Shown here: positions 1 through 40,895 of the stretch, piece after piece
Layout: each line of letters opens with the position of its first letter
Numbering within the stretch: position 1 is the first letter of the stretch
Source of the DNA: Bacillota bacterium
GTDB taxonomy: Bacteria > Bacillota > Clostridia > Christensenellales > UBA1242
Direction of reading: 5' to 3'
Length of the DNA: 40,895 bases
Assembly (NCBI GenBank): GCA_009784185.1
Contig: WRCD01000007.1
Location: 1 to 40,895, forward strand
Position numbers and translations under genes: made by a program
Notes under the pieces: model-generated
Told to the model about the DNA's origin: nothing
The model's input: only the letters and a program-made list of their open reading frames with translations
Database searches by the model: none

Positions 1-3000
1 GCATACAACTACGACGTTGAATACGAACTGGAGCAAACCGGCAGCACTTGGTTCTTAATAGTGTCCGCCTGCCCGGAGTTTTTCCAAACCGCCCAGTTTC
101 CAGTGACAGTTGACCCGACGATAACTGTGAAACAAGAGCATATGAATGTGGGCAGCCATCATGATGTGGGTACAACCGTGCGTACGAATTTCTATGTACA
201 TTATCCACTTTGGGGAATCGGCGGAGGCTGGTATTTTGCTTATGTGGATTTAGGTACGGAAAGAATTGTGAGCAAGGTCAGCAGATTGGATATTACTTCG
301 GCAAGTCTGTCCATAAATTTTGCTAATTCCGGCGCCAACTTTCTGGCAAGGCTGATGAACACCAAAAACTACAGTCAATTATATAACAATGCAAATTTCA
401 TACATAATCTAAGTTCAACCACCGACAACAATTCAAATCCCAGAAGACTCACCGTCAATGTTACAGATTACGTTAACAACCGACTTGATGCAGCTACCAT
501 ATCTATAAGGTGTCAAAACAACAAAGGCAACGATTTTTCAAGTGCGGTTCTAACAATAACCTATAATGAATTTGATAACCCTGACTACAACCTTACTCAG
601 GATTTGGGTGAGAGCGGCGCGGGCGCGGTAAATCTGAACACCGGGGCTTTAAGTTACACATACAACGACATTATAACAACGGACTGCAATATGCCCATTT
701 CAATCAACCGCATTTACAACGAGGATTTTGCAGACACCTACAAAGTGGGCTACGGCTTTAAGTTGAATATCCAGCAAAAGGTAGCACATGACGGTTCTAA
801 TTACTATTATTTAAGCGCCACCGGCAAGCGATACTATTTTGCTTTTTATAATCAAGTGAACACGAACAAGGAATTAGGCTTACGCTTGTATTTTTCCGGC
901 TCTACCGCGCTTATAATAGACCTGCATGGTAACTCCATGTTGTTTGATATGAGCAACAACGGAAACCTAAAGGAAATACATCAATATCCCTCAAAACCGG
1001 GTGCTGCGTTGGACGCACTAAGCATAGTCTTGACGTACAGTGGTAATAATATTTCTGAGATAACCAACAATTTTACAACGCTGCATTTCTCATATACTGG
1101 CGGATATCTTACTAAAATTGAGGACGGTTCTTTCACAACACTAGCGCAATACTGGTACACCGGCAACAAACTTGACATAGCACAAAAGTTTTTCACTTCC
1201 GTTGCATACGACACGACCCTAACTTACAACGGAAATAAAATATCCGGCATAACAAGCGCAACCGGAGACAAAGTACAATACACATATTCTGCTAACAAAA
1301 TAAGTTCAGTTGCAACATCCAACACAAACAATCTTACCGGTAGCCCTGTTATAACGAATATACAGTATACAACTTTTACAAGGGTGTTTTTGGGGCTGCT
1401 TGCTACAATGGCAATGGATAAAACAACTGTTGTAACCCAGGGTGATTTGATAAGACATATTTCGTTTAAGGGCAGTAAAATGATATCGGACTACACTTAT
1501 AAAAACGATGGTGGCAGTTTTATCCCATACAGCGCTTATTCCAACGAAGTTAATTTCATGGCATTTAATGAAGCGTACGGAACTGCTCAAAGTATTTATT
1601 ATCACGAATTTAATTCATCCACCGTTTATAACGGTTCGTTAATTCATCCGGTAACTTTTAATACTATTTGGGGAACGCACAGTTACGCAATGGGTGTATG
1701 GGTAAAAAAGATTGGCAGCGCAAAAGAAGATTTGCTTGTATCCACAAATGCCAACCTGTTTGGACTATACGACCGGGATGCAATAAACTCCAACATATTA
1801 GACTGGCAGTTTTATGTTTACATAATTGAAAATCCAGGATACCTTGCTTCTTTTAATGCAGCAATAGACTGCAACGCCGGTTTTTACATACGCTCCATTC
1901 AGCTTATACAACTGCCGCGGTTTACAAAAAGCCAAAAGGAAGAGTGGGCGCCTATCCGTAATGCCAACGGGCAGACAATTGCTAGCTTTCATTACGCTGC
2001 AGATAACTCTATTACTTCGTATCAATACACGTACGGCAACGCAAATGGAAACTATCTCGGGCAGCTAACTAGCATAACCGAGCGCACCGGAAGCGCAACG
2101 CTTACGAGAGCGCAATATCAAAGCCAAGCCACACAAGTAAGCAAGGTGGTTTACAGTTATACGCCTTACACTGTCAGCGGTAAAACCTATTCGTTTTTAA
2201 CAAGCACCACCACATACGGCAGTTCGTCTGCTTCCGGTGCGCCATACTTTACAACGGTTTACGGTTACGACAATGCAGGCCGTGTAACCTCATACACAGA
2301 CAAAAACGATGTGGTTACCGAATACAATTATGACCCGCTTACCGGTGCGATTACCGCAACTGTTTTGGAGGATGTGCTGTTAGGGACTGGCACCAGCACA
2401 ACAAACCAGTATCAGCAAGGCACGGGCTCGCTGCTGAGTACAACAACAGGCGGCATAACCACCAACTTTGGCTACAATAGCTGGGGCGGACTGGAAACTA
2501 TAAGCCAAAATGGTTTTACCACCTGTTTTAATTACAACTCAGAGGGCGGACTGCAAAGCATTAGCGTGGCAGGTCAGCAGCTTGTAAACTATACTTATTC
2601 GGATACTCAAAATATTATTGAATATTCCAACTGGTCCAACCTGGACCCGTTTGCAATGCAGAGCGTAAAATATAATTATGACGCAAACGGATACTTGACC
2701 AGCATGGAAAACGAAATGAACAATATAGCCAATTTCAATTATAGCAACAACCAATTGTCGTCTGTTTCACATGCAAACGGTGTTAATTATAACTATGCGT
2801 TTAATAGCCAAAATGCAGCTTCATCATATGAAATGACCAACGCCGGTAATACCTTCAGGGCGGAATACAGCAATTCCGGCAAAACTCAGAGTTATTTCCT
2901 GGGAGACCCCATGGGCGGCTACTCTCTTATGGATTATTACGAGCACACCTATAACAGCCGCGGGCAGATAACCGGCACTTACCGAAATGCAAATATGAAT

Positions 3001-4644
3001 ACGCAATATAATTACGACCCCATGAGCAGGCCGGACAGCAAAACGCTTACGCTTGGCGCAAACAGTTACAAAAACAGCTATGAATACTACGGCAACAACA
3101 ACAGAGTTTTTAGAGAGCAATATACAATAAACACGACCAAGCAGAGCGATTACATCTATTCATACTATGACAATGGTCTTTTGCAAACTGTTTATGACGG
3201 AAAGTATTACCCAAACAATTGGGTGTATCTGAATCATTACGAATACGATGCCTTTGGCAGGCTTGCCATAGAATACAACTTTACTGCCGGCAAAATATAC
3301 CAGTACATTTATGATAACGGCGGAAATATACTGGCAAAGCACCAGTACGACATTAACGGCAATTGGGAGACTATGTGGTCATACACTTACAGCGGTATTT
3401 GGAAAGACCAACTGCTGGCGTATAACGGCCAAGCCATAACATACGACGAAGTTGGCAACCCAACGTTGTATAAGGGCAATAACCTAACTTGGCAGAATGG
3501 CAGACAGCTTGCTACGTACGGCAGCAACATTAGTTATGAATACGACTATGCTAGTATACGAACAAGCAAAACAGTTAACGGCGTAACAACCAATTACTAT
3601 CTTGAAGGCAGCCGCATCTGGATGGAAACCACAAACGGCCAGATGAAATGGTATTACTATGACGCAGACGGAATCCAGGGAATGTGGAGCAGCGTGTACG
3701 GTGAATACTACTTTGAGCGCAATATGTTTGGTGACGTGGTAGCACTATGGACTACTAGCGGCGCACTAGCCGGCAGATACGTGTACGACGCATGGGGAAA
3801 TCACACTATTTACGATGCTGCAGGTAGCGTGATTAATCCATACACTCCGCACGCAATGACAGCAAACCCGTGGCGGTACAGAGGCTATTTTTATGACAGC
3901 GAAACCGGATTTTTTTATCTTAACAGCCGCTATTACGACCCACAGATTTGCCGGTTTATAAATGCAGATGAACCTGTGATGCTGTTTTTAACCGCGGGAA
4001 TGCCGGGCGGAGCAAACCTGTATGCTTACGCATTAAATAATCCTATAAAATTTGTTGACAGGACTGGAACAATGCCAGTTCCTGCTATTGGACCGGCATG
4101 GAGTGGTAGTGGAAGCGGAACTGGTTATGACAGAATTGTTAGACCAAACTTGAGCAATGATTTAATAAATATTATTTTCCATGGTGACCCAGGAATGATA
4201 CTTCTTAAACAATATGGAGGTGCAGTCGGGTCAATGTTAACATCGCCTTTTGCAACCGGTATGTATGCTTTAGGTTATATGCTTCAATCATTTACTTCGG
4301 TGAAAATGTTCACCTATAATTACTCTTTTTTAGAAGCAAGCGTAACGGGGTTTACAATAGCTGATGCGAATTTTACGGGGGCTGCATTAAGTCTTTATAC
4401 TAGTAACAATCACAATAACAACATATATTTAAATGCCGTAAACTTTTCAGTTTTTGCCGGTTTTGCAATAGATGGAATTGGCCTTTCGGCGCAAGGAACT
4501 ATATTAGAACTTGGCTATAGTAGCAGTAATTTTGATATAGGGATTTTGCTTGGCTCAATGGGTTGGAATTTAAAGCTCACACAAAATAGTTTAACTATTG
4601 GTGGGTCATATCTGGTAGGTTTGATATTTACAATTAGGTGGTAA
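1..4644 (+). CDS. Rhs/YD-repeat polymorphic toxin, 5'-truncated by window
   Basis: The frame is open back to base 1, so the N-terminus lies outside; the GTG at 61 is internal. The first ~180 residues include FPVTVDPT and a beta-rich stretch like the DNRLRE module often found in secreted Rhs proteins. A long YD-repeat region follows (YNYD, YTYN, YEYD). The Rhs core (about 3660-4065) contains RYYDPQICRFINADE and ends at NNPIKFVDRTG, the usual junction to the variable tip. The tip (about 4066-4641, ~190 residues) is hydrophobic and glycine-rich; I do not recognise it. By family knowledge this is a large surface or secreted shell carrying a C-terminal toxin. The hydrophobic tip and the membrane protein that starts 2 bases after the stop suggest a membrane-acting toxin (inference). 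Confidence 0.9.
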   Translation, partial: AYNYDVEYELEQTGSTWFLIVSACPEFFQTAQFPVTVDPTITVKQEHMNVGSHHDVGTTVRTNFYVHYPLWGIGGGWYFAYVDLGTERIVSKVSRLDITSASLSINFANSGANFLARLMNTKNYSQLYNNANFIHNLSSTTDNNSNPRRLTVNVTDYVNNRLDAATISIRCQNNKGNDFSSAVLTITYNEFDNPDYNLTQDLGESGAGAVNLNTGALSYTYNDIITTDCNMPISINRIYNEDFADTYKVGYGFKLNIQQKVAHDGSNYYYLSATGKRYYFAFYNQVNTNKELGLRLYFSGSTALIIDLHGNSMLFDMSNNGNLKEIHQYPSKPGAALDALSIVLTYSGNNISEITNNFTTLHFSYTGGYLTKIEDGSFTTLAQYWYTGNKLDIAQKFFTSVAYDTTLTYNGNKISGITSATGDKVQYTYSANKISSVATSNTNNLTGSPVITNIQYTTFTRVFLGLLATMAMDKTTVVTQGDLIRHISFKGSKMISDYTYKNDGGSFIPYSAYSNEVNFMAFNEAYGTAQSIYYHEFNSSTVYNGSLIHPVTFNTIWGTHSYAMGVWVKKIGSAKEDLLVSTNANLFGLYDRDAINSNILDWQFYVYIIENPGYLASFNAAIDCNAGFYIRSIQLIQLPRFTKSQKEEWAPIRNANGQTIASFHYAADNSITSYQYTYGNANGNYLGQLTSITERTGSATLTRAQYQSQATQVSKVVYSYTPYTVSGKTYSFLTSTTTYGSSSASGAPYFTTVYGYDNAGRVTSYTDKNDVVTEYNYDPLTGAITATVLEDVLLGTGTSTTNQYQQGTGSLLSTTTGGITTNFGYNSWGGLETISQNGFTTCFNYNSEGGLQSISVAGQQLVNYTYSDTQNIIEYSNWSNLDPFAMQSVKYNYDANGYLTSMENEMNNIANFNYSNNQLSSVSHANGVNYNYAFNSQNAASSYEMTNAGNTFRAEYSNSGKTQSYFLGDPMGGYSLMDYYEHTYNSRGQITGTYRNANMNTQYNYDPMSRPDSKTLTLGANSYKNSYEYYGNNNRVFREQYTINTTKQSDYIYSYYDNGLLQTVYDGKYYPNNWVYLNHYEYDAFGRLAIEYNFTAGKIYQYIYDNGGNILAKHQYDINGNWETMWSYTYSGIWKDQLLAYNGQAITYDEVGNPTLYKGNNLTWQNGRQLATYGSNISYEYDYASIRTSKTVNGVTTNYYLEGSRIWMETTNGQMKWYYYDADGIQGMWSSVYGEYYFERNMFGDVVALWTTSGALAGRYVYDAWGNHTIYDAAGSVINPYTPHAMTANPWRYRGYFYDSETGFFYLNSRYYDPQICRFINADEPVMLFLTAGMPGGANLYAYALNNPIKFVDRTGTMPVPAIGPAWSGSGSGTGYDRIVRPNLSNDLINIIFHGDPGMILLKQYGGAVGSMLTSPFATGMYALGYMLQSFTSVKMFTYNYSFLEASVTGFTIADANFTGAALSLYTSNNHNNNIYLNAVNFSVFAGFAIDGIGLSAQGTILELGYSSSNFDIGILLGSMGWNLKLTQNSLTIGGSYLVGLIFTIRW
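3772..3884 (+). repeat. Rhs core recombination block, copy 1
   Basis: This 113-bp stretch of the main rhs gene recurs at 5035-5147 with only a few substitutions. The last ~59 bp (AGCGTGATTAATCC to TACAGAGG) look identical. Similarity falls off sharply afterwards although the protein stays related. This fits recent duplication or gene conversion at the boundary where Rhs tips are exchanged. Confidence 0.85.
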
Positions 4645-4646
4645 AT

Positions 4647-5012
4647 ATGAGAGAGGATTTTATTAATTTAAAAAAGCAAATGTTTTTGGGGTGCATACCA
4701 GTAGTTGGTAGTTTTATAGTTGGCATAATTATGTTTATAAATATTGCTAGAATGTCAAAACTTGGCGACAAAATATTACTTGTTTTTGTAGGAATGCCAC
4801 TGGTCGGAGCGGGCTTTTGCGGTTTAGGGTTTTTATTCTTTACTCTAGTGTCGGAAGAGAATTTTTTATTAAACTACTCTCTGGGTTTGATAATCTTCTA
4901 CTATTTAGCTTTTGCTTTTATTGGGTGTCAATTTTTAATTTTCAAACTAATAACAAAAAGAAAAGAGCCAATTAAAAAAATTAAGGACGAGGATGAATCA
5001 AAATTTATTTAA
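4647..5012 (+). CDS. small 3-TM protein, candidate Rhs immunity
   Basis: This is a 121-residue protein with three predicted membrane segments (about residues 11-35, 42-68 and 77-102) and a lysine/acid-rich tail. The ATG at 4647 is chosen because AGGTGG (4636-4641) sits 5 bases upstream, overlapping the rhs stop (4642-4644); a GTG at 4638 is also in frame. The tight coupling to the rhs tip argues for a cognate immunity protein. No family is recognised. It overlaps the next rhs fragment by 20 bases. Confidence 0.75.
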   Translation: MREDFINLKKQMFLGCIPVVGSFIVGIIMFINIARMSKLGDKILLVFVGMPLVGAGFCGLGFLFFTLVSEENFLLNYSLGLIIFYYLAFAFIGCQFLIFKLITKRKEPIKKIKDEDESKFI

Positions 5013-5874
5013 AAAAGAGAGCAGCGTACTTATTGGCAGATATGTGTATGACGCATGGGGCAACCACACTATTTACGATGCTGCAGGCAGCGTGATTAAT
5101 CCATACACTCCGCACGCAATGACAGCAAACCCGTGGCGGTACAGAGGGTACTACTGGGATCAAGAAACAAATTTTTATTTTTTGCAGAGCAGATACTATG
5201 ACCCACAAATCGGGCGGTTCCTTAATGCGGATGAACCTGTGATGTTGTTTTTGACCGCAACAATGCCCGGCGGAGCAAACCTTTTTGCGTATTGTATGAA
5301 CAATCCGATTATGCTGACAGATAGCACCGGTTGCAGTCCGTTCTGGGACTTTTTAAAAGAATACATTGGCTGGGCTACTATGGCGTTAGTGGCCGTAGAG
5401 TGTGGGCTTAGTATAGCTACAGGATTTGTTTTACGAACACTACCAATACCTGGTATAAATGAGATAGGTAAAACCCTTGTTGGTGCAGGGGTTGGTGGAT
5501 TGTTCAGTATGGGAGGAAGTGTTTTTGAACAGTTAACCGATAAAGGTTACGTTAACCCGTGGCAGCTTGCTTTTAACGGCAAAATAGGATACTGGACAGG
5601 GTTTGCAGTATCTGCACCAATGGGGCCGATTTCTACAGGAATAGCTGTAGGAGCATTATCTGTTTTGCAAAGCGTTGGAAATGATTTGTTTAACAATAAT
5701 TTTGACGGCAGTAAAATAAACTGGGAAAGGGCAGTGTACATGGGTGTTGCTTGCGGCATGACAGCAGGAATTTTTAAGGCGTTTGCAGGTCGCCTCCCGG
5801 GATATGAAATAGCCTTCAGCGCAGCCGGCGGATTATACCGTGTTGGATTTAGTTGGCTTTTTAAGTATGCTTAA
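4993..5874 (+). CDS. orphan Rhs core + C-terminal tip (module 2)
   Basis: This 293-residue protein starts directly in the end of an Rhs core (GRYVYDAWGNHTIY at residue ~15), runs through RYYDPQIGRFLNADE and NNPIMLTDSTG (~residue 110), and carries a tip of ~180 residues rich in Gly/Ala and hydrophobic runs. The shell and any secretion signal are missing, as in orphan rhs-CT cassettes that serve as donors for tip switching. ATG 4993 follows an AGGACGAGG sequence, so it could also be translated alone. The tip is unrelated to that of module 1. Confidence 0.8.
   Translation: MNQNLFKKESSVLIGRYVYDAWGNHTIYDAAGSVINPYTPHAMTANPWRYRGYYWDQETNFYFLQSRYYDPQIGRFLNADEPVMLFLTATMPGGANLFAYCMNNPIMLTDSTGCSPFWDFLKEYIGWATMALVAVECGLSIATGFVLRTLPIPGINEIGKTLVGAGVGGLFSMGGSVFEQLTDKGYVNPWQLAFNGKIGYWTGFAVSAPMGPISTGIAVGALSVLQSVGNDLFNNNFDGSKINWERAVYMGVACGMTAGIFKAFAGRLPGYEIAFSAAGGLYRVGFSWLFKYA
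5035..5147 (+). repeat. Rhs core recombination block, copy 2
   Basis: Near-identical partner of 3772-3884, in direct orientation and 1263 bp away. Recombination between them would delete tip 1 and its immunity gene and join the main rhs gene in frame to tip 2. Both blocks encode GRYVYDAWGNHTIYDAAGSV. Confidence 0.85.
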
Positions 5875-5893
5875 CAACAATTAAGGAGGAGTT

Positions 5894-6343
5894 ATGGCGT
5901 TTAGGAAATTCGATTTGACAAAGGCGGAGTGCAAAAAACTTTTTATTATCTTTATAGTGATACTTGGTGCTGGTATGCTTATAACGGTAATAGGCGGCAT
6001 GCTTATGGGGGTGGCAAGTTTATTTTCGGCGCGTGCGATTATAGAAACAATAGCAATAATATTATTGTTGACAGGATTAGGAGTAATGGGTGTGCCGACT
6101 GTTTTTCTCTCAATAAAATATCCGGGGTTTTTTAAACCATACAACTCTACAGTAGAACAAATAGAGCGTCTTGAAAAACTATATGAAAGCCAAGACATAA
6201 CCGAAGCAGAATACACAAAACTTCGCACTGAGGTTGAGAAAACCGCACAGATAGAAAAGTTATACTTAAATAGTGAAATAACCAAACAGGAGTATGATAA
6301 GCTGCAAAATCAAGCCAACAAACAAGGCAAGGAGAAGGAATGA
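5894..6343 (+). CDS. 2-TM protein with doubled SHOCT-like tail
   Basis: A 149-residue protein with strong ribosome site AAGGAGGA (5883-5890) before ATG 5894. Two membrane segments (about residues 16-43 and 49-70) are followed by two SHOCT-like helices in tandem: IERLEKLYESQDITEAEY and IEKLYLNSEITKQEY. SHOCT modules are short oligomerisation or binding helices at protein ends. Its position just after an rhs tip makes it a candidate immunity or accessory protein (inference). It shares the membrane+SHOCT plan with genes at 12902 and 27589. Its stop overlaps the next start. Confidence 0.75.
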   Translation: MAFRKFDLTKAECKKLFIIFIVILGAGMLITVIGGMLMGVASLFSARAIIETIAIILLLTGLGVMGVPTVFLSIKYPGFFKPYNSTVEQIERLEKLYESQDITEAEYTKLRTEVEKTAQIEKLYLNSEITKQEYDKLQNQANKQGKEKE

Positions 6344-6891
6344 AAACCATATTTTACAGACATGGAATAGATAATGCGTATGTTTTTGCAATGATTCCAA
6401 TAATAATTGGCGTTATGTCAGCCGTCTTTTTCCGCAAGTTTATTTTGATTGAGTTTGTTGCAGTATTAATCATTCCCTTGACCATGTCGTTTTTACTCTT
6501 TGTAGTAGCCATGAAAAGGTCGTTATCCAAGATTTACATATCAGAACAAGGCTTAGAGCATAGGTTTTTTAAAAAACAACTGAAATTCATTGGTTGGGAT
6601 GAGATACAGCTTATTGGAAAGCACTCACAATACATAAGCATATTTGACAAGCGCAACCTAAAACTGATTTTAAAAAATAAAAACACCGGCAATTTAGAAA
6701 TGTTTTATTTTAACTGTAGCAATAAAATCAGAAAAACCTTAATTGAGCTATGTCCCGTGGAGGAGATTAAAACACAACTGGAGCAAATAGAGTTTAGGTT
6801 TTTAACAGACATATTTTACAAAAACAGAAAGAATGGTCAAAGGGACGGAGGTCATGGTCAGGGGGACGGGAGTAATGACACAAAAGCTTAA
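6340..6891 (+). CDS. 2-TM protein with PH-like soluble domain
   Basis: A 183-residue protein whose start overlaps the previous stop (ATGA), with AAGGAGAAGGA upstream, so the pair is translationally coupled. Two membrane helices (about residues 13-33 and 37-59) precede a beta-strand-rich domain (SKIYISEQGLEHRFFKKQ, WDEIQLI) of the type seen in bacterial PH-like membrane proteins. The C-terminal ~20 residues are Gly/Asp-rich (GQRDGGHGQGDG) and come from a degenerate 21-bp tandem repeat that overlaps the next gene. Second candidate immunity gene for tip 2 (inference). Confidence 0.7.
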   Translation: MKTIFYRHGIDNAYVFAMIPIIIGVMSAVFFRKFILIEFVAVLIIPLTMSFLLFVVAMKRSLSKIYISEQGLEHRFFKKQLKFIGWDEIQLIGKHSQYISIFDKRNLKLILKNKNTGNLEMFYFNCSNKIRKTLIELCPVEEIKTQLEQIEFRFLTDIFYKNRKNGQRDGGHGQGDGSNDTKA

Positions 6892-7837
6892 AACCAACAT
6901 TTTAATACCGTTTCTGGCCGTATTTTTGGCGCTCATCTGCCTGTTTGTTTTCAATGCGCAAGACTGGCAGCGGGTGTCTGCCGAGCAATACGAACGGACG
7001 GTTTCGGCAGAAAGCCAGGTTGATGAAAATGAAGATTATTTTGTGCTTATTTTCATGCTTGCAATATTCGTGAAATACGACGAATCCGGCATATCGGGTT
7101 TTAACATGGGTGGATGGGACTATATTTTCCAGAAAAATATTCTGGGAGACATCGTGTCTATCTGGCGCGCTGACGGAGCGTTTGGCGGCAGTTACCAATA
7201 CGATGCTTGGGGAAACACAACTATTCTGGCCGACCCGCTTGGGGTAGCCAACTGGAATCCGTTTAGATATAGAGGTTATTACCAAGACCAAGAGTCCGGG
7301 TTCTACTATCTAAATAGCAGGTATTATGACCCTGAAATTGGACGATTTATCAATGCGGACGACCCTGTAGTGCTTTTCCTGACCGCCGGTATGTGCGGGG
7401 GCGCGAATTTATATGCGTATTGCGGAAACAATCCGGTGATGAGAGTTGATTATAGTGGTTATAGTTGGCTATCTAATCTATTTAGCGGCATTTCTAGCCT
7501 CCTATCCAATGCGGCAGTAGCGCTAGAAAGTGTTATGGAAATGCTAGCCCCACATGTTTATGAAATAGAGTTTTCAGGAACAAGGGGCTGGCTTAGAGTG
7601 TTACACCACACTGTAGGGGTAGCATTAAGTGTGACAGTTATTGCCCGAGGCATAGTCTTAATGTTGGCGCCTGAACCGACTAGTTTAACGATAGGAGTAG
7701 GGTTTACGATGACTATGGGCGGTTTAGCAACCTTTGTTCTTAGTTTTGTCAACACAATTAACTCGCTCTACGGAATGGTAACGCGAGGTTCGTTTAAGGA
7801 GTTGTCTATATTTTATATTTTTGGTCTACCTAGATAA
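6875..7837 (+). CDS. mini-Rhs: signal peptide joined to Rhs core and tip (module 3)
   Basis: About 320 residues. It begins with a secretion signal (NILIPFLAVFLALICLFVF after basic residues), then ~45 residues, then enters the Rhs core at YDESGISG, with RYYDPEIGRFINADD and NNPVMRVDYSG. The tip is ~125 hydrophobic residues. The body of YD repeats is absent, so this is either an internal deletion of a full rhs gene or a compact secreted version. In-frame ATGs exist at 6833, 6854 and 6875, spaced by a 21-bp repeat; 6875 starts directly at the signal peptide and has AGGGGG nine bases upstream. It overlaps the previous gene by 17 bases. Confidence 0.75.
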   Translation: MTQKLKTNILIPFLAVFLALICLFVFNAQDWQRVSAEQYERTVSAESQVDENEDYFVLIFMLAIFVKYDESGISGFNMGGWDYIFQKNILGDIVSIWRADGAFGGSYQYDAWGNTTILADPLGVANWNPFRYRGYYQDQESGFYYLNSRYYDPEIGRFINADDPVVLFLTAGMCGGANLYAYCGNNPVMRVDYSGYSWLSNLFSGISSLLSNAAVALESVMEMLAPHVYEIEFSGTRGWLRVLHHTVGVALSVTVIARGIVLMLAPEPTSLTIGVGFTMTMGGLATFVLSFVNTINSLYGMVTRGSFKELSIFYIFGLPR

Positions 7838-7855
7838 TAGAAACAAGGAGAAACA

Positions 7856-8389
7856 ATGATGTTTGCTTTTTGGTTGGTATTAATAATAGTTTCGTTTTGC
7901 GCCATACTGTTTTTCGTATTTGAACTTCCTGGTGTAGTTTTTCAACGGAGAGTTCATTTTAAAAGAATAAAAGATATTGTCATTATTGTAGGTATTACTA
8001 TATCGATTGTTGTTTTCTACATGGCTTTAGCGTTTGCTTTTTCTTATGTAGAAGACACATTGCTGCGTTACCCGATTTGCGGTAGTATTTTGGCTTTTGG
8101 TGTAATCTACATATCAGGAACCATTTTGCCGCTTCAAAAAACAGATTATTCCAAAGTCAACATTGTTCGTCATATTTTAAAAGAACTTCTCCCGTACATG
8201 ATAATTTATGTGGCCGCCTTTTATATTTTACTGGAATTCGTTTTTATAAGTTTGATGATTCTCATAGTTGGCAGTATATTAATAACCATAAGAATATATT
8301 TTGTAACCAAAAGCTATCGCATTGCACAAGCAAATCAAAAAGCCGAACAGGCGCAAGAAGAGAGAATCAACAACAATCCTAATGATTGA
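7856..8389 (+). CDS. 4-TM protein, candidate immunity for module 3
   Basis: A 177-residue integral membrane protein with about four or five hydrophobic segments and a polar C-terminal tail (QKAEQAQEERINN). AAGGAG precedes ATG 7856 (an ATG at 7859 is also possible). It follows the third rhs tip by 18 bases and is closed by a terminator at 8411. Family not recognised; the immunity role is inferred from position and from the matching pattern at the other two modules. Confidence 0.7.
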   Translation: MMFAFWLVLIIVSFCAILFFVFELPGVVFQRRVHFKRIKDIVIIVGITISIVVFYMALAFAFSYVEDTLLRYPICGSILAFGVIYISGTILPLQKTDYSKVNIVRHILKELLPYMIIYVAAFYILLEFVFISLMILIVGSILITIRIYFVTKSYRIAQANQKAEQAQEERINNNPND

Positions 8390-8410
8390 GAAAAGCGGGT
8401 TATAAGGACG

Positions 8411-8437
8411 AAAAAGACAGTTAATTACTGTCTTTTT
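8411..8437 (+). terminator. intrinsic terminator of the rhs array
   Basis: AAAAAGACAG, a 7-base loop, then CTGTCTTTTT. Confidence 0.8.
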
Positions 8438-8458
8438 ATTCTACAAAAGGAGTAAAAA

Positions 8459-8587
8459 ATGACAAACGCAAACCCAATCTTGCACGGGATTTCGATTATT
8501 TACTTTAACAAGCCGCATAAGAATATTACTCAAAATTACAACCCAAGAAAGAACAAGCAAAACGGCTGGTGGATAATACATTCATAA
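8459..8587 (+). CDS. 42-residue hypothetical peptide
   Basis: MTNANPILHGISIIYFNKPH... ends in WWIIHS. AAAAGGAG lies six bases before ATG 8459, and the ORF sits alone between two terminators. No promoter is evident, and read-through from the rhs array would be needed. It could be a small accessory of module 3, or the remnant end of a larger gene. The strong ribosome site is the main support. Confidence 0.4.
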   Translation: MTNANPILHGISIIYFNKPHKNITQNYNPRKNKQNGWWIIHS

Positions 8588-8591
8588 ACAC

Positions 8592-8622
8592 AAAAAGCCG
8601 TGCTGTTTAAGCACGGCTTTTT
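8592..8622. terminator. bidirectional terminator
   Basis: AAAAAGCCGTGC / GCACGGCTTTTT with an 8-base loop (12-bp stem). It can end the small ORF on the plus strand and the tRNA-Ser transcript on the minus strand. Confidence 0.85.
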
Positions 8623-8743
8623 ACTTACAAAAGTTTCCTAGCCCATCTCGTTTTTGCGTTAGATAGCGGGATTGCGTTTTTGGTTTTAATCCGGCGTAGT
8701 TTGCGACTATGCCCGGAACACCCTTGACGAAAACGTATAACAT
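8621..8743 (-). CDS. possible 40-residue peptide in tRNA-Ser trailer
   Basis: MLYVFVKGVPGIVANYAGLK... ends in GLGNFCK. GGAG lies four bases before the ATG. The equivalent frame in the second copy (from 40811) remains open to the window edge as MQYIFVRGVPGIVANYAGLK..., with three of seven substitutions synonymous plus V/I and K/R exchanges. That is suggestive of coding, but the sample is small and the same DNA folds well (see the repeat entry). Nothing is known of such a peptide to me. Confidence 0.3.
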   Translation of the reverse strand: MLYVFVKGVPGIVANYAGLKPKTQSRYLTQKRDGLGNFCK

Positions 8744-8774
8744 TTCGCTCCGGGTGTTCAAACTCTGTCGCCAT
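8659..8774 (-). repeat. tRNA-Ser-linked 116-bp module, copy 1
   Basis: It starts immediately after the CCA end of tRNA-Ser(CGA) and matches 40780-40895 without gaps, with 7 differences. Read on the minus strand it has three successive inverted repeats: GAACACCC/GGGTGTTC (with an inner CGAAATG/CATTTTCG-type stem), GGCATAGT/ACTACGCC (one mismatch) and GGATT/AATCC. In the inner stem a T-A pair in copy 2 becomes a T-G wobble in copy 1, so pairing is kept. Confidence 0.85.
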
Positions 8775-8862
8775 TGGCGGAAAGGGGCGGATTTGAACCG
8801 CCGGTTGCTTTCGCAACACCTGTTTTCGAGACAGGCACATTCGACCACTCTGACACCTTTCC
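8775..8862 (-). tRNA. tRNA-Ser(CGA)
   Basis: 88 nt with encoded CCA. The acceptor stem is GGAAAGG/CCTTTCC. The anticodon stem-loop CCTGT-CTCGAAA-ACAGG gives CGA. The long variable arm (GTTGCGAAAGCAAC) is typical of class II tRNA-Ser. Confidence 0.95.
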
Positions 8863-40689: not shown

Positions 40690-40779
40690 GGAGAAGTACC
40701 CAAGCTGGTCGAAGGGGCGTCCCTGCTAAGGACGTAGTGCTGAAAGGCAGCGAGAGTTCGAATCTCTCCTTCTCCGCCA
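40690..40779 (+). tRNA. tRNA-Ser(GCT)
   Basis: 90 nt with encoded CCA. Acceptor GGAGAAG/CTTCTCC; anticodon arm CGTCC-CTGCTAA-GGACG; long variable arm. Confidence 0.95.
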
Positions 40780-40895
40780 ATGGCGACAGAGTTTGAACAC
40801 CCGGAGCGAAATGCAATACATTTTCGTTAGGGGTGTTCCGGGCATAGTCGCAAACTACGCCGGATTAAAACCAAAAACGCAATCCCGTTACCTAA
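40780..40895 (+). repeat. tRNA-Ser-linked 116-bp module, copy 2 (cut by window end)
   Basis: It begins at the base after the CCA of tRNA-Ser(GCT) and is 94% identical to the reverse complement of 8659-8774. All three inverted repeats are kept. In copy 1 the transcript continues ~40 more bases to a terminator; here that part lies beyond the window. Confidence 0.85.

Follow-up and report, generated by a model that had tools for sequence, protein, structure and literature searches.

The locus described here is an Rhs system by its core and layout. We regard it as probably a set of Rhs polymorphic toxins with exchangeable tip/immunity cassettes, in which putative membrane-acting tips would be answered by membrane immunity proteins. 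This reading leans on analogy with described toxins and on a pairing, across the bacterial family, of hydrophobic tip ends with transmembrane (TM) partners.

An array of three Rhs modules

The window, i.e., the whole stretch of DNA that was analysed, is an entire contig of 40,895 bp (G000:C7) from a gut Clostridia genome of 1.16 Mb that is 94% complete. Seven genes, all on the plus strand, lie within positions 1-8389 in the order rhs1 fragment, 3-TM protein, rhs2, 2-TM protein, second membrane protein, rhs3 and 5-TM protein (Table 1). The original prediction of one large rhs gene followed on the same strand by two shortened core-plus-tip modules was borne out, with the Rhs_assc_core model TIGR03696 above cut-off in rhs1, rhs2 and rhs3 (E = 7e-19, 1e-19 and 1e-21); rhs1 also matches DUF6531 (E = 8e-6) and RHS_repeat (E = 4e-5). 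A variable tip stands directly behind the conserved core in the modules (core alignment A1), and the partner gene follows at -6, +20 and +19 nt in modules 1, 2 and 3. As had been proposed, the membrane partners number one, two and one behind the successive tips (3 TM segments; 2 TM plus 1-2 TM; 5 TM).

The tips (191, 180 and 125 aa) have mean hydropathies of +0.37, +0.48 and +0.77. The claim that they are unrelated stands, their best mutual match being no better than E = 0.07, and all three are indeed hydrophobic by mean. They are not hydrophobic in the same sense, however, because tip 1 has no TM-like segment and its C-terminal 100 aa are beta-like. One boundary had to be moved: module 3 starts at the ATG at 6875 instead of 6833, and has a signal peptide of its own.

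Table 1. Features of the Rhs array and of the repeat next to tRNA-Ser genes (window positions unless another locus is named).
Feature	Position	Strand	Description
rhs1	1..4644	+	large Rhs/YD-repeat protein, open frame of 1547 aa; N-terminus lost at contig start
rhs1 core	about 3784-4068	+	TIGR03696, E = 7e-19
tip 1	4069..4641	+	191 aa, hydropathy +0.37, without TM helix, beta-like C-terminal half
partner 1	4648..5012	+	124 aa, 3 TM segments; ATG at 4648, listed ORF from GTG at 4638
rhs2	4993..5874	+	orphan-type core-plus-tip, without signal peptide; start overlaps end of partner 1
tip 2	5332..5871	+	180 aa, hydrophobic
partner 2a	5894..6343	+	149 aa, 2 TM helices, SHOCT-like tail; Shine-Dalgarno aaggagg
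partner 2b	6340..6891	+	183 aa, two-TM hairpin plus PH-like domain
rhs3	6875..7837	+	mini-Rhs: signal peptide, short linker, core and tip
rhs3 signal peptide region MTQKLKTNILIPFLAVFLALICLFVFNAQDWQRVSAEQ	6875..6988	+	recurs in the mini-Rhs of the C2 array
tip 3	7460..7834	+	125 aa, two TM-like segments
partner 3	7856..8389	+	177 aa, five TM segments; Shine-Dalgarno aaggaga
170-nt tRNA-Ser 3' repeat	8611-8781	-	
170-nt tRNA-Ser 3' repeat	40773-40895	+	to contig end
170-nt tRNA-Ser 3' repeat	L006 6642-6812		

Hydrophobic tip ends are paired with membrane partners

Our survey found the core in 49 of 309 genomes and 20 of 42 genera of the family. The fetched loci gave 88 core ORFs and 76 pairs, a pair being a tip of at least 100 aa and the next gene within 70 nt (median gap 10 nt, median partner 152 aa). 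A tip was called hydrophobic-ended at a mean hydropathy of at least 0.2 over its last 80 residues, and TM segments were called with a Kyte-Doolittle window of 19 at 1.6; the ORFs are mechanical, the partner is simply the next ORF and the genomes are MAGs. By reading of the sequences, three tip types can be told apart: type A, in which a soluble end comes after a hydrophobic, glycine-rich half and the partner, near 100 aa, is in most cases soluble; type B, hydrophobic throughout and near 200 aa, with a partner of 2-4 TM segments; and type C, beta-like, with a TM partner.

A partner with at least one TM segment follows 38 of the 41 hydrophobic-ended tips versus 9 of the 35 others (Fisher p = 1.7e-9), and a threshold-free rank test likewise gives 1.7e-9. 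The association holds at hydropathy thresholds of 0.3, 0.4 and 0.5 (p = 5e-8, 2e-5 and 1e-4), when at least two TM segments are required at the original threshold (p = 2e-6) and when the host's own genome is removed (35/37 vs 9/35, p = 8e-10). The tips inside a cluster are related, and kinship is corrected only in part by the two stricter tests: collapsing the tips to 39 sequence clusters (20/21 vs 6/18 with a TM partner, p = 7e-5) and permuting partners within genomes only (45 of 54 concordant vs 35.4 expected, p = 0.0012). The latter removes base composition and lineage effects. As a control, the second gene downstream showed no association with tip hydrophobicity (6/16 vs 3/14, p = 0.44). 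AT-rich base composition was considered as a possible cause, but both the permutation within genomes and the result for the second gene speak against it.

Tip and partner families co-segregate, which fits what toxin and immunity should do: tip cluster 0 goes with partner cluster 0 in 9/9 cases, tip cluster 3 with partner cluster 1 in 4/4, tip cluster 5 with partner cluster 3 in 3/3 and tip cluster 6 with partner cluster 0 in 3/3. The rule is not absolute. TM partners also stand behind the 9 of 35 soluble-ended tips already mentioned, and in the second array of the host genome a hydrophobic tip is followed by a soluble protein (C2:6105-6464). In a control of 69 pairs from 60 loci in other Clostridia, hydrophobic-ended tips made up 4/69, against 41/76 in the family (p = 7.5e-11).

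Two observations on partners and arrays may be added. Outside the family (L101-L160), 27 of the 69 partners have a single TM segment that invariably lies close to the N-terminus, which suggests exported or lipoprotein-like proteins; since such partners are common in the class, a TM partner taken alone is weak evidence. One genome with 13 core matches carries two long arrays (L052 and L063, i.e., G089:C2 and C1), one with mostly soluble-ended tips and soluble partners, the other with solely hydrophobic tips and TM partners.

What had been proposed from the parallel in the window, membrane-attacking tips with membrane-resident immunity, is thus strengthened as far as the parallel itself goes, by the 38/41 vs 9/35 contrast and by co-segregation. 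Tips 1 and 3 lack a glycine zipper, and the pairing rule reaches them by analogy because no homologue of either was found.

The partners of tip 2

Tip 2 is followed by two candidate immunity genes. In phmmer searches, partner 2b matches the L069 partner at E = 8e-14 and nine other partners of type B tips at values down to 1e-6, and iterated clustering places it in the largest partner family, of 20 members. The other 19 members each stand directly behind a tip, nearly all of them hydrophobic-ended; partner 2b itself stands second behind tip 2, after the 149-aa, 2-TM partner 2a, so either protein could be the immunity protein. By analogy with ExiC and ExiD, which protect only jointly (PMC12744356), the cognate immunity protein of tip 2 could be partner 2a, partner 2b or both.

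The hydropathy script counts one TM segment in partner 2b and the fold model has two helices in that place. Its AlphaFold2 model (mean pLDDT 72) consists of two long helices, six strands and two C-terminal helices, and the best Foldseek matches are PH/PTB folds with a probability of about 1.0 (E = 3e-3, TM 0.3 of the full query), modest values that are expected if the C-terminal half alone matches. A profile scan of genome contigs returned five close named relatives, from MAGs of uncultured Clostridia or 'Christensenella sp.'. Across ten members, the family has a weak profile likeness to the STM3941 family (NF041635) and DUF6585 (PF20226), with best E = 5e-6 and 4e-4; partner 2b (6340-6888) scores 17.2 bits with the STM3941 NCBIfam model against a cut-off of 40 bits and is not a member. 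A generic '2TM effector' matched partner 2a weakly (E = 5e-5); we place no reliance on this.

Core sharing and mini-Rhs genes

The cores of rhs1 and rhs2 are 82% identical in DNA over 257 bp, and core duplication or recombination is therefore visible in the DNA. Identity is highest where the match begins and then falls, which by its alignment pattern is the usual footprint of core recombination; rhs2 and rhs3 are 71% identical over 126 bp. The aspartyl protease motif at the core end, DPxG-X18-DPxG as given in PMC10684867, is degenerate: both Asp are invariant (D123 and D153 in alignment A1) and 30 residues apart, in contexts altered to NADEP and D[RSY][TS]G. It is consequently uncertain that tips are released by the usual aspartyl mechanism.

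A second Rhs array of the host genome (C2:1-6464) contains a second mini-Rhs (C2:4510-6084). The signal peptide region of rhs3 is 60% identical to C2:4615-4824 over 69 aa (E = 1.5e-20), its start region is 85% identical in DNA to that mini-Rhs over 133 bp, and two modules of L031, in genus g7, likewise start with signal-peptide-like segments. A purine-rich start region (ggtcagggggacgg..tgacacaaa) occurs at window 6833-6884, L006 4589-4721 and L006 6568-6597; it precedes mini-Rhs genes, and the fragment after the C2 array is perhaps a remnant of lost modules.

These data bear on an alternative that we consider unlikely, that the array is a decaying relic in which tips 2 and 3 and their partners have been displaced and only the immunity genes still matter, against neighbours. 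The lack of a signal peptide in rhs2, which does have an ATG, would suit it, and so would an observation on CDI loci, where the immunity genes of orphan toxin cassettes are expressed but most of the cassettes themselves have no signals for starting translation (PMC3150448). Against it, every frame is open, and rhs3 has a purine-rich stretch ahead of its start codon as well as a signal peptide, an arrangement that recurs in the C2 array and in genus g7 (L031).

Another contig of the genome, C16, carries the N-terminus of another Rhs of the full-length type, with a different signal peptide. It includes 121 bp that are 92% identical to the window start, so the contig break at rhs1 is probably due to rhs repeats. 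The C16 fragment (L170, G000:C16 1-2487) is itself cut by the contig end and has a gene for a tyrosine integrase in its neighbourhood (Phage_integrase, E = 1e-16).

Tip architecture and glycine zippers

The judgement that the tips cannot be assigned to a known toxin family was upheld: Pfam, NCBIfam and PADLOC profiles gave nothing above curated cut-offs beyond the core, the window partners had no match above curated cut-offs in the same collections, and PDB sequence searches with tips and profiles returned nothing useful. Among 84 family tips none is a homologue of tip 1 or tip 3, and a scan of genome contigs with the rhs1 end found no relative. Tip 2 shows a weak resemblance to glycine-rich tips in L081 (E = 7e-7) and L075 (9e-4), both from relatives. 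Homology of tips 2 and 3 to the largest tip family was considered and is not claimed, because hhalign gave a probability of only 13% and 0.3% against its profile. The last 100 aa of tip 1 alternate in a beta-strand-like way, with a moment ratio of 2.07; the beta-like tips L031:11575, L052:3628, L066:3797 and L085:3 have ratios of 1.8-2.7 and most other examined tips 0.7-1.4. By this composition argument tip 1 looks beta-rich.

Very few family tips are recognised by Pfam (Gly-zipper_Omp in four, GIY-YIG in one, Ntox24 in one). Glycine-zipper motifs of the (G/A/S)xxxGxxxG type are in excess in the family, with 6.6 per hydrophobic-ended tip vs 2.1 in shuffles and 6.1 per soluble-ended tip vs 1.7, compared with 1.1 vs 0.8 in the class control; the excess reaches p < 0.05 in 28 of 41 hydrophobic-ended tips. 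Tips 1, 2 and 3 of the window show no significant excess (1, 4 and 0 motifs; p = 0.73, 0.10 and 1.0). The AlphaFold2 model of one representative type B tip consists of helices only, several of them at least 20 residues long (mean pLDDT 70, pTM 0.62), and a fold search of the PDB with it returned no convincing match and no known pore-former.

A glycine zipper serves the entry of Tde1 (PMC10240207), and many family tips combine a glycine-rich hydrophobic first half with a soluble end and a soluble partner. It could be argued from this that the hydrophobic tips are entry (translocation) segments only, harmless remnants whose enzyme part is lost or degenerate. We find this improbable, as the hydrophobic-ended tips are full length (about 200 aa, as are the two-part tips), have long conserved C-terminal parts (A4) and bring membrane partner families of their own, while remnants should not keep matched partners. 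Still less credible is a role of the tips in anchoring surface Rhs proteins in the membrane, or as their structural ends, with the small membrane proteins as assembly or anchoring helpers. Most tips and partners do lack a match to any described family, but unrelated tips sit on neighbouring modules of one array where an anchor would be expected to be conserved and not exchanged, a GIY-YIG nuclease tip and an Ntox24-like tip occupy the same position, tip families go with matching partner families, and the usual companion of a soluble-ended tip is a soluble protein, so that structural Rhs ends, an outcome the original prediction had allowed for, fit poorly.

tRNA genes beside the arrays

At four loci (window 8389-8862; L006 6464-6893; L040 8709-9048; L031 6301-6377) the Rhs array ends beside a tRNA gene that has its 3' end towards the array, as if the arrays sat in tRNA integration sites; the gene is a tRNA-Ser in three cases and a tRNA-Asp in one. 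The right end of the window also stops just 3' of a tRNA-Ser. About 170 nt, 94% identical, lie directly 3' of three different tRNA-Ser genes (CGA, GGA and GCT; Table 1), and the first 32 nt are also found behind tRNA-Ser TGA on C1. The repeat encodes a 40-aa ORF (MQYIFVRGVPGIVANYAGLKPKTQSRYLTQKRDGLGNFCK) whose copies differ by conservative changes. In another genus (L173), a relative of this ORF with 37% identity lies some 32 nt 3' of a tRNA-Ser. Rfam gave no match to the repeat besides tRNA.

Comparison with known systems

The locus probably works like Tse5, EsxX/TelE and the CDI ionophores, an analogy of function for which no homology is claimed. Tse5/Tsi5 of P. aeruginosa combines an Rhs shell, a C-terminal membrane-inserting tip and a cognate immunity gene, as is proposed for this locus, and the Tse5 tip forms ion-selective pores in membranes (PMC10684867, PMC9637101). 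Tse5 differs in being a single, T6SS-delivered effector of a Gram-negative with a DPxG-X19-DPxG motif, whereas here there is an array; the tips were compared by description. Orphan Rhs-CT/RhsI and CdiA-CT/CdiI modules (PMC3150448; PMC3967940) share the layout of a main gene followed by core-plus-tip fragments with immunity genes, putative here, and the core DNA in common upstream of unrelated tips. Typical orphan modules lack translation start signals, whereas rhs3, one module in C2 and two in L031 have a start and a signal peptide.

EsxX/TelE with ExiA-D (PMC12744356) resembles the proposed system in a C-terminal toxin of about 196 aa, a glycine zipper as in many tips of the family, polytopic membrane immunity and more than one immunity gene per toxin. 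It differs in its LXG carrier and T7SS, where the genome studied here has no EssC above cut-off, and the zipper is not significant in the window tips; our PH-like partner family was set beside ExiA-D by description, not sequence. The CDI ionophores with CdiI (PMC11630599) resemble the locus as read here in their diverse hydrophobic helical tips and small two-helix, highly polymorphic, cognate-specific membrane immunity proteins. They use the CdiA carrier of Gram-negatives, and CdiI has 72-100 aa vs about 150 aa plus a PH-like domain in the main partner family. WapA of S. suis (PMC12704120) comes close as a Gram-positive, Sec-exported Rhs-type protein with a polymorphic C-terminal toxin; neither its abstract nor our literature searches describe a tip array dominated by membrane-acting tips.

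We do not read the locus as a known phage or plasmid locus, because the matches of the rhs2 module in phage and plasmid records are below 60% identity and fall mostly in the core. Literature searches found no Rhs repertoire dominated by membrane-acting tips and no two-TM plus PH-like immunity family, which is weak evidence that none exists, with many subscription journals outside their coverage.

A possible mode of action

We hypothesize that the full-length Rhs would be exported by Sec, as the signal peptides of the C16 Rhs and of rhs3 and a genome with no EssC above cut-off suggest. Delivery by a T7SS (LXG) was rejected, as no T7SSb EssC scores above cut-off in this 94% complete genome: the best score of the EssC model was 115 bits against a cut-off of 778, confined to positions 470-660, and the model likewise gives sub-threshold hits in control genomes, E. 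coli among them. The YD-repeat shell would carry the C-terminal tip, as in Tse5 (PMC10684867), and the released tip would insert into a competitor's cytoplasmic membrane, leading to depolarisation or leak. The small membrane protein behind each tip would sit in the producer's membrane and block the matching tip. Tips 2 and 3 would be helical membrane inserters and tip 1 a beta-rich one. rhs2 may serve as a reserve cassette, recombinable onto the full-length gene, and rhs3, by its own signal peptide, could be exported alone. In type A tips, the glycine-rich half may help the enzyme across the membrane, as for Tde1.

More tentatively, these parts can be joined in a wider reading for small-genome gut Clostridia, one that we would not yet bet on, in which Rhs proteins form a membrane arsenal, one zipper scaffold serves as enzyme carrier or as weapon, mini-Rhs proteins are exported as short effectors and immunity is membrane-based, its largest family being the two-TM hairpin with a PH-like domain. 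Conceivably, the scaffold would then have a soluble partner when it carries an enzyme and a membrane partner when it is itself the weapon.

Meaning for the family

The 2012 survey of polymorphic toxins listed one pore-forming domain, Tox-WTIP, among many enzymatic ones (PMC3482391). In the family considered here, about half of the tips are hydrophobic-ended with a matched membrane partner, compared with 6% hydrophobic-ended tips in other Clostridia, which suggests that its Rhs weapons are now largely directed against cell membranes and that a matching membrane protein acts as the antidote. For asking how a membrane-crossing segment becomes a membrane weapon, the family supplies candidate tip/immunity pairs as well as soluble-ended relatives that can serve as controls. 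Should mini-Rhs proteins be exported, they would reveal how small a part of the Rhs shell is enough. The finding bears on competition among uncultured gut Clostridia with reduced genomes and no evident T7SS.
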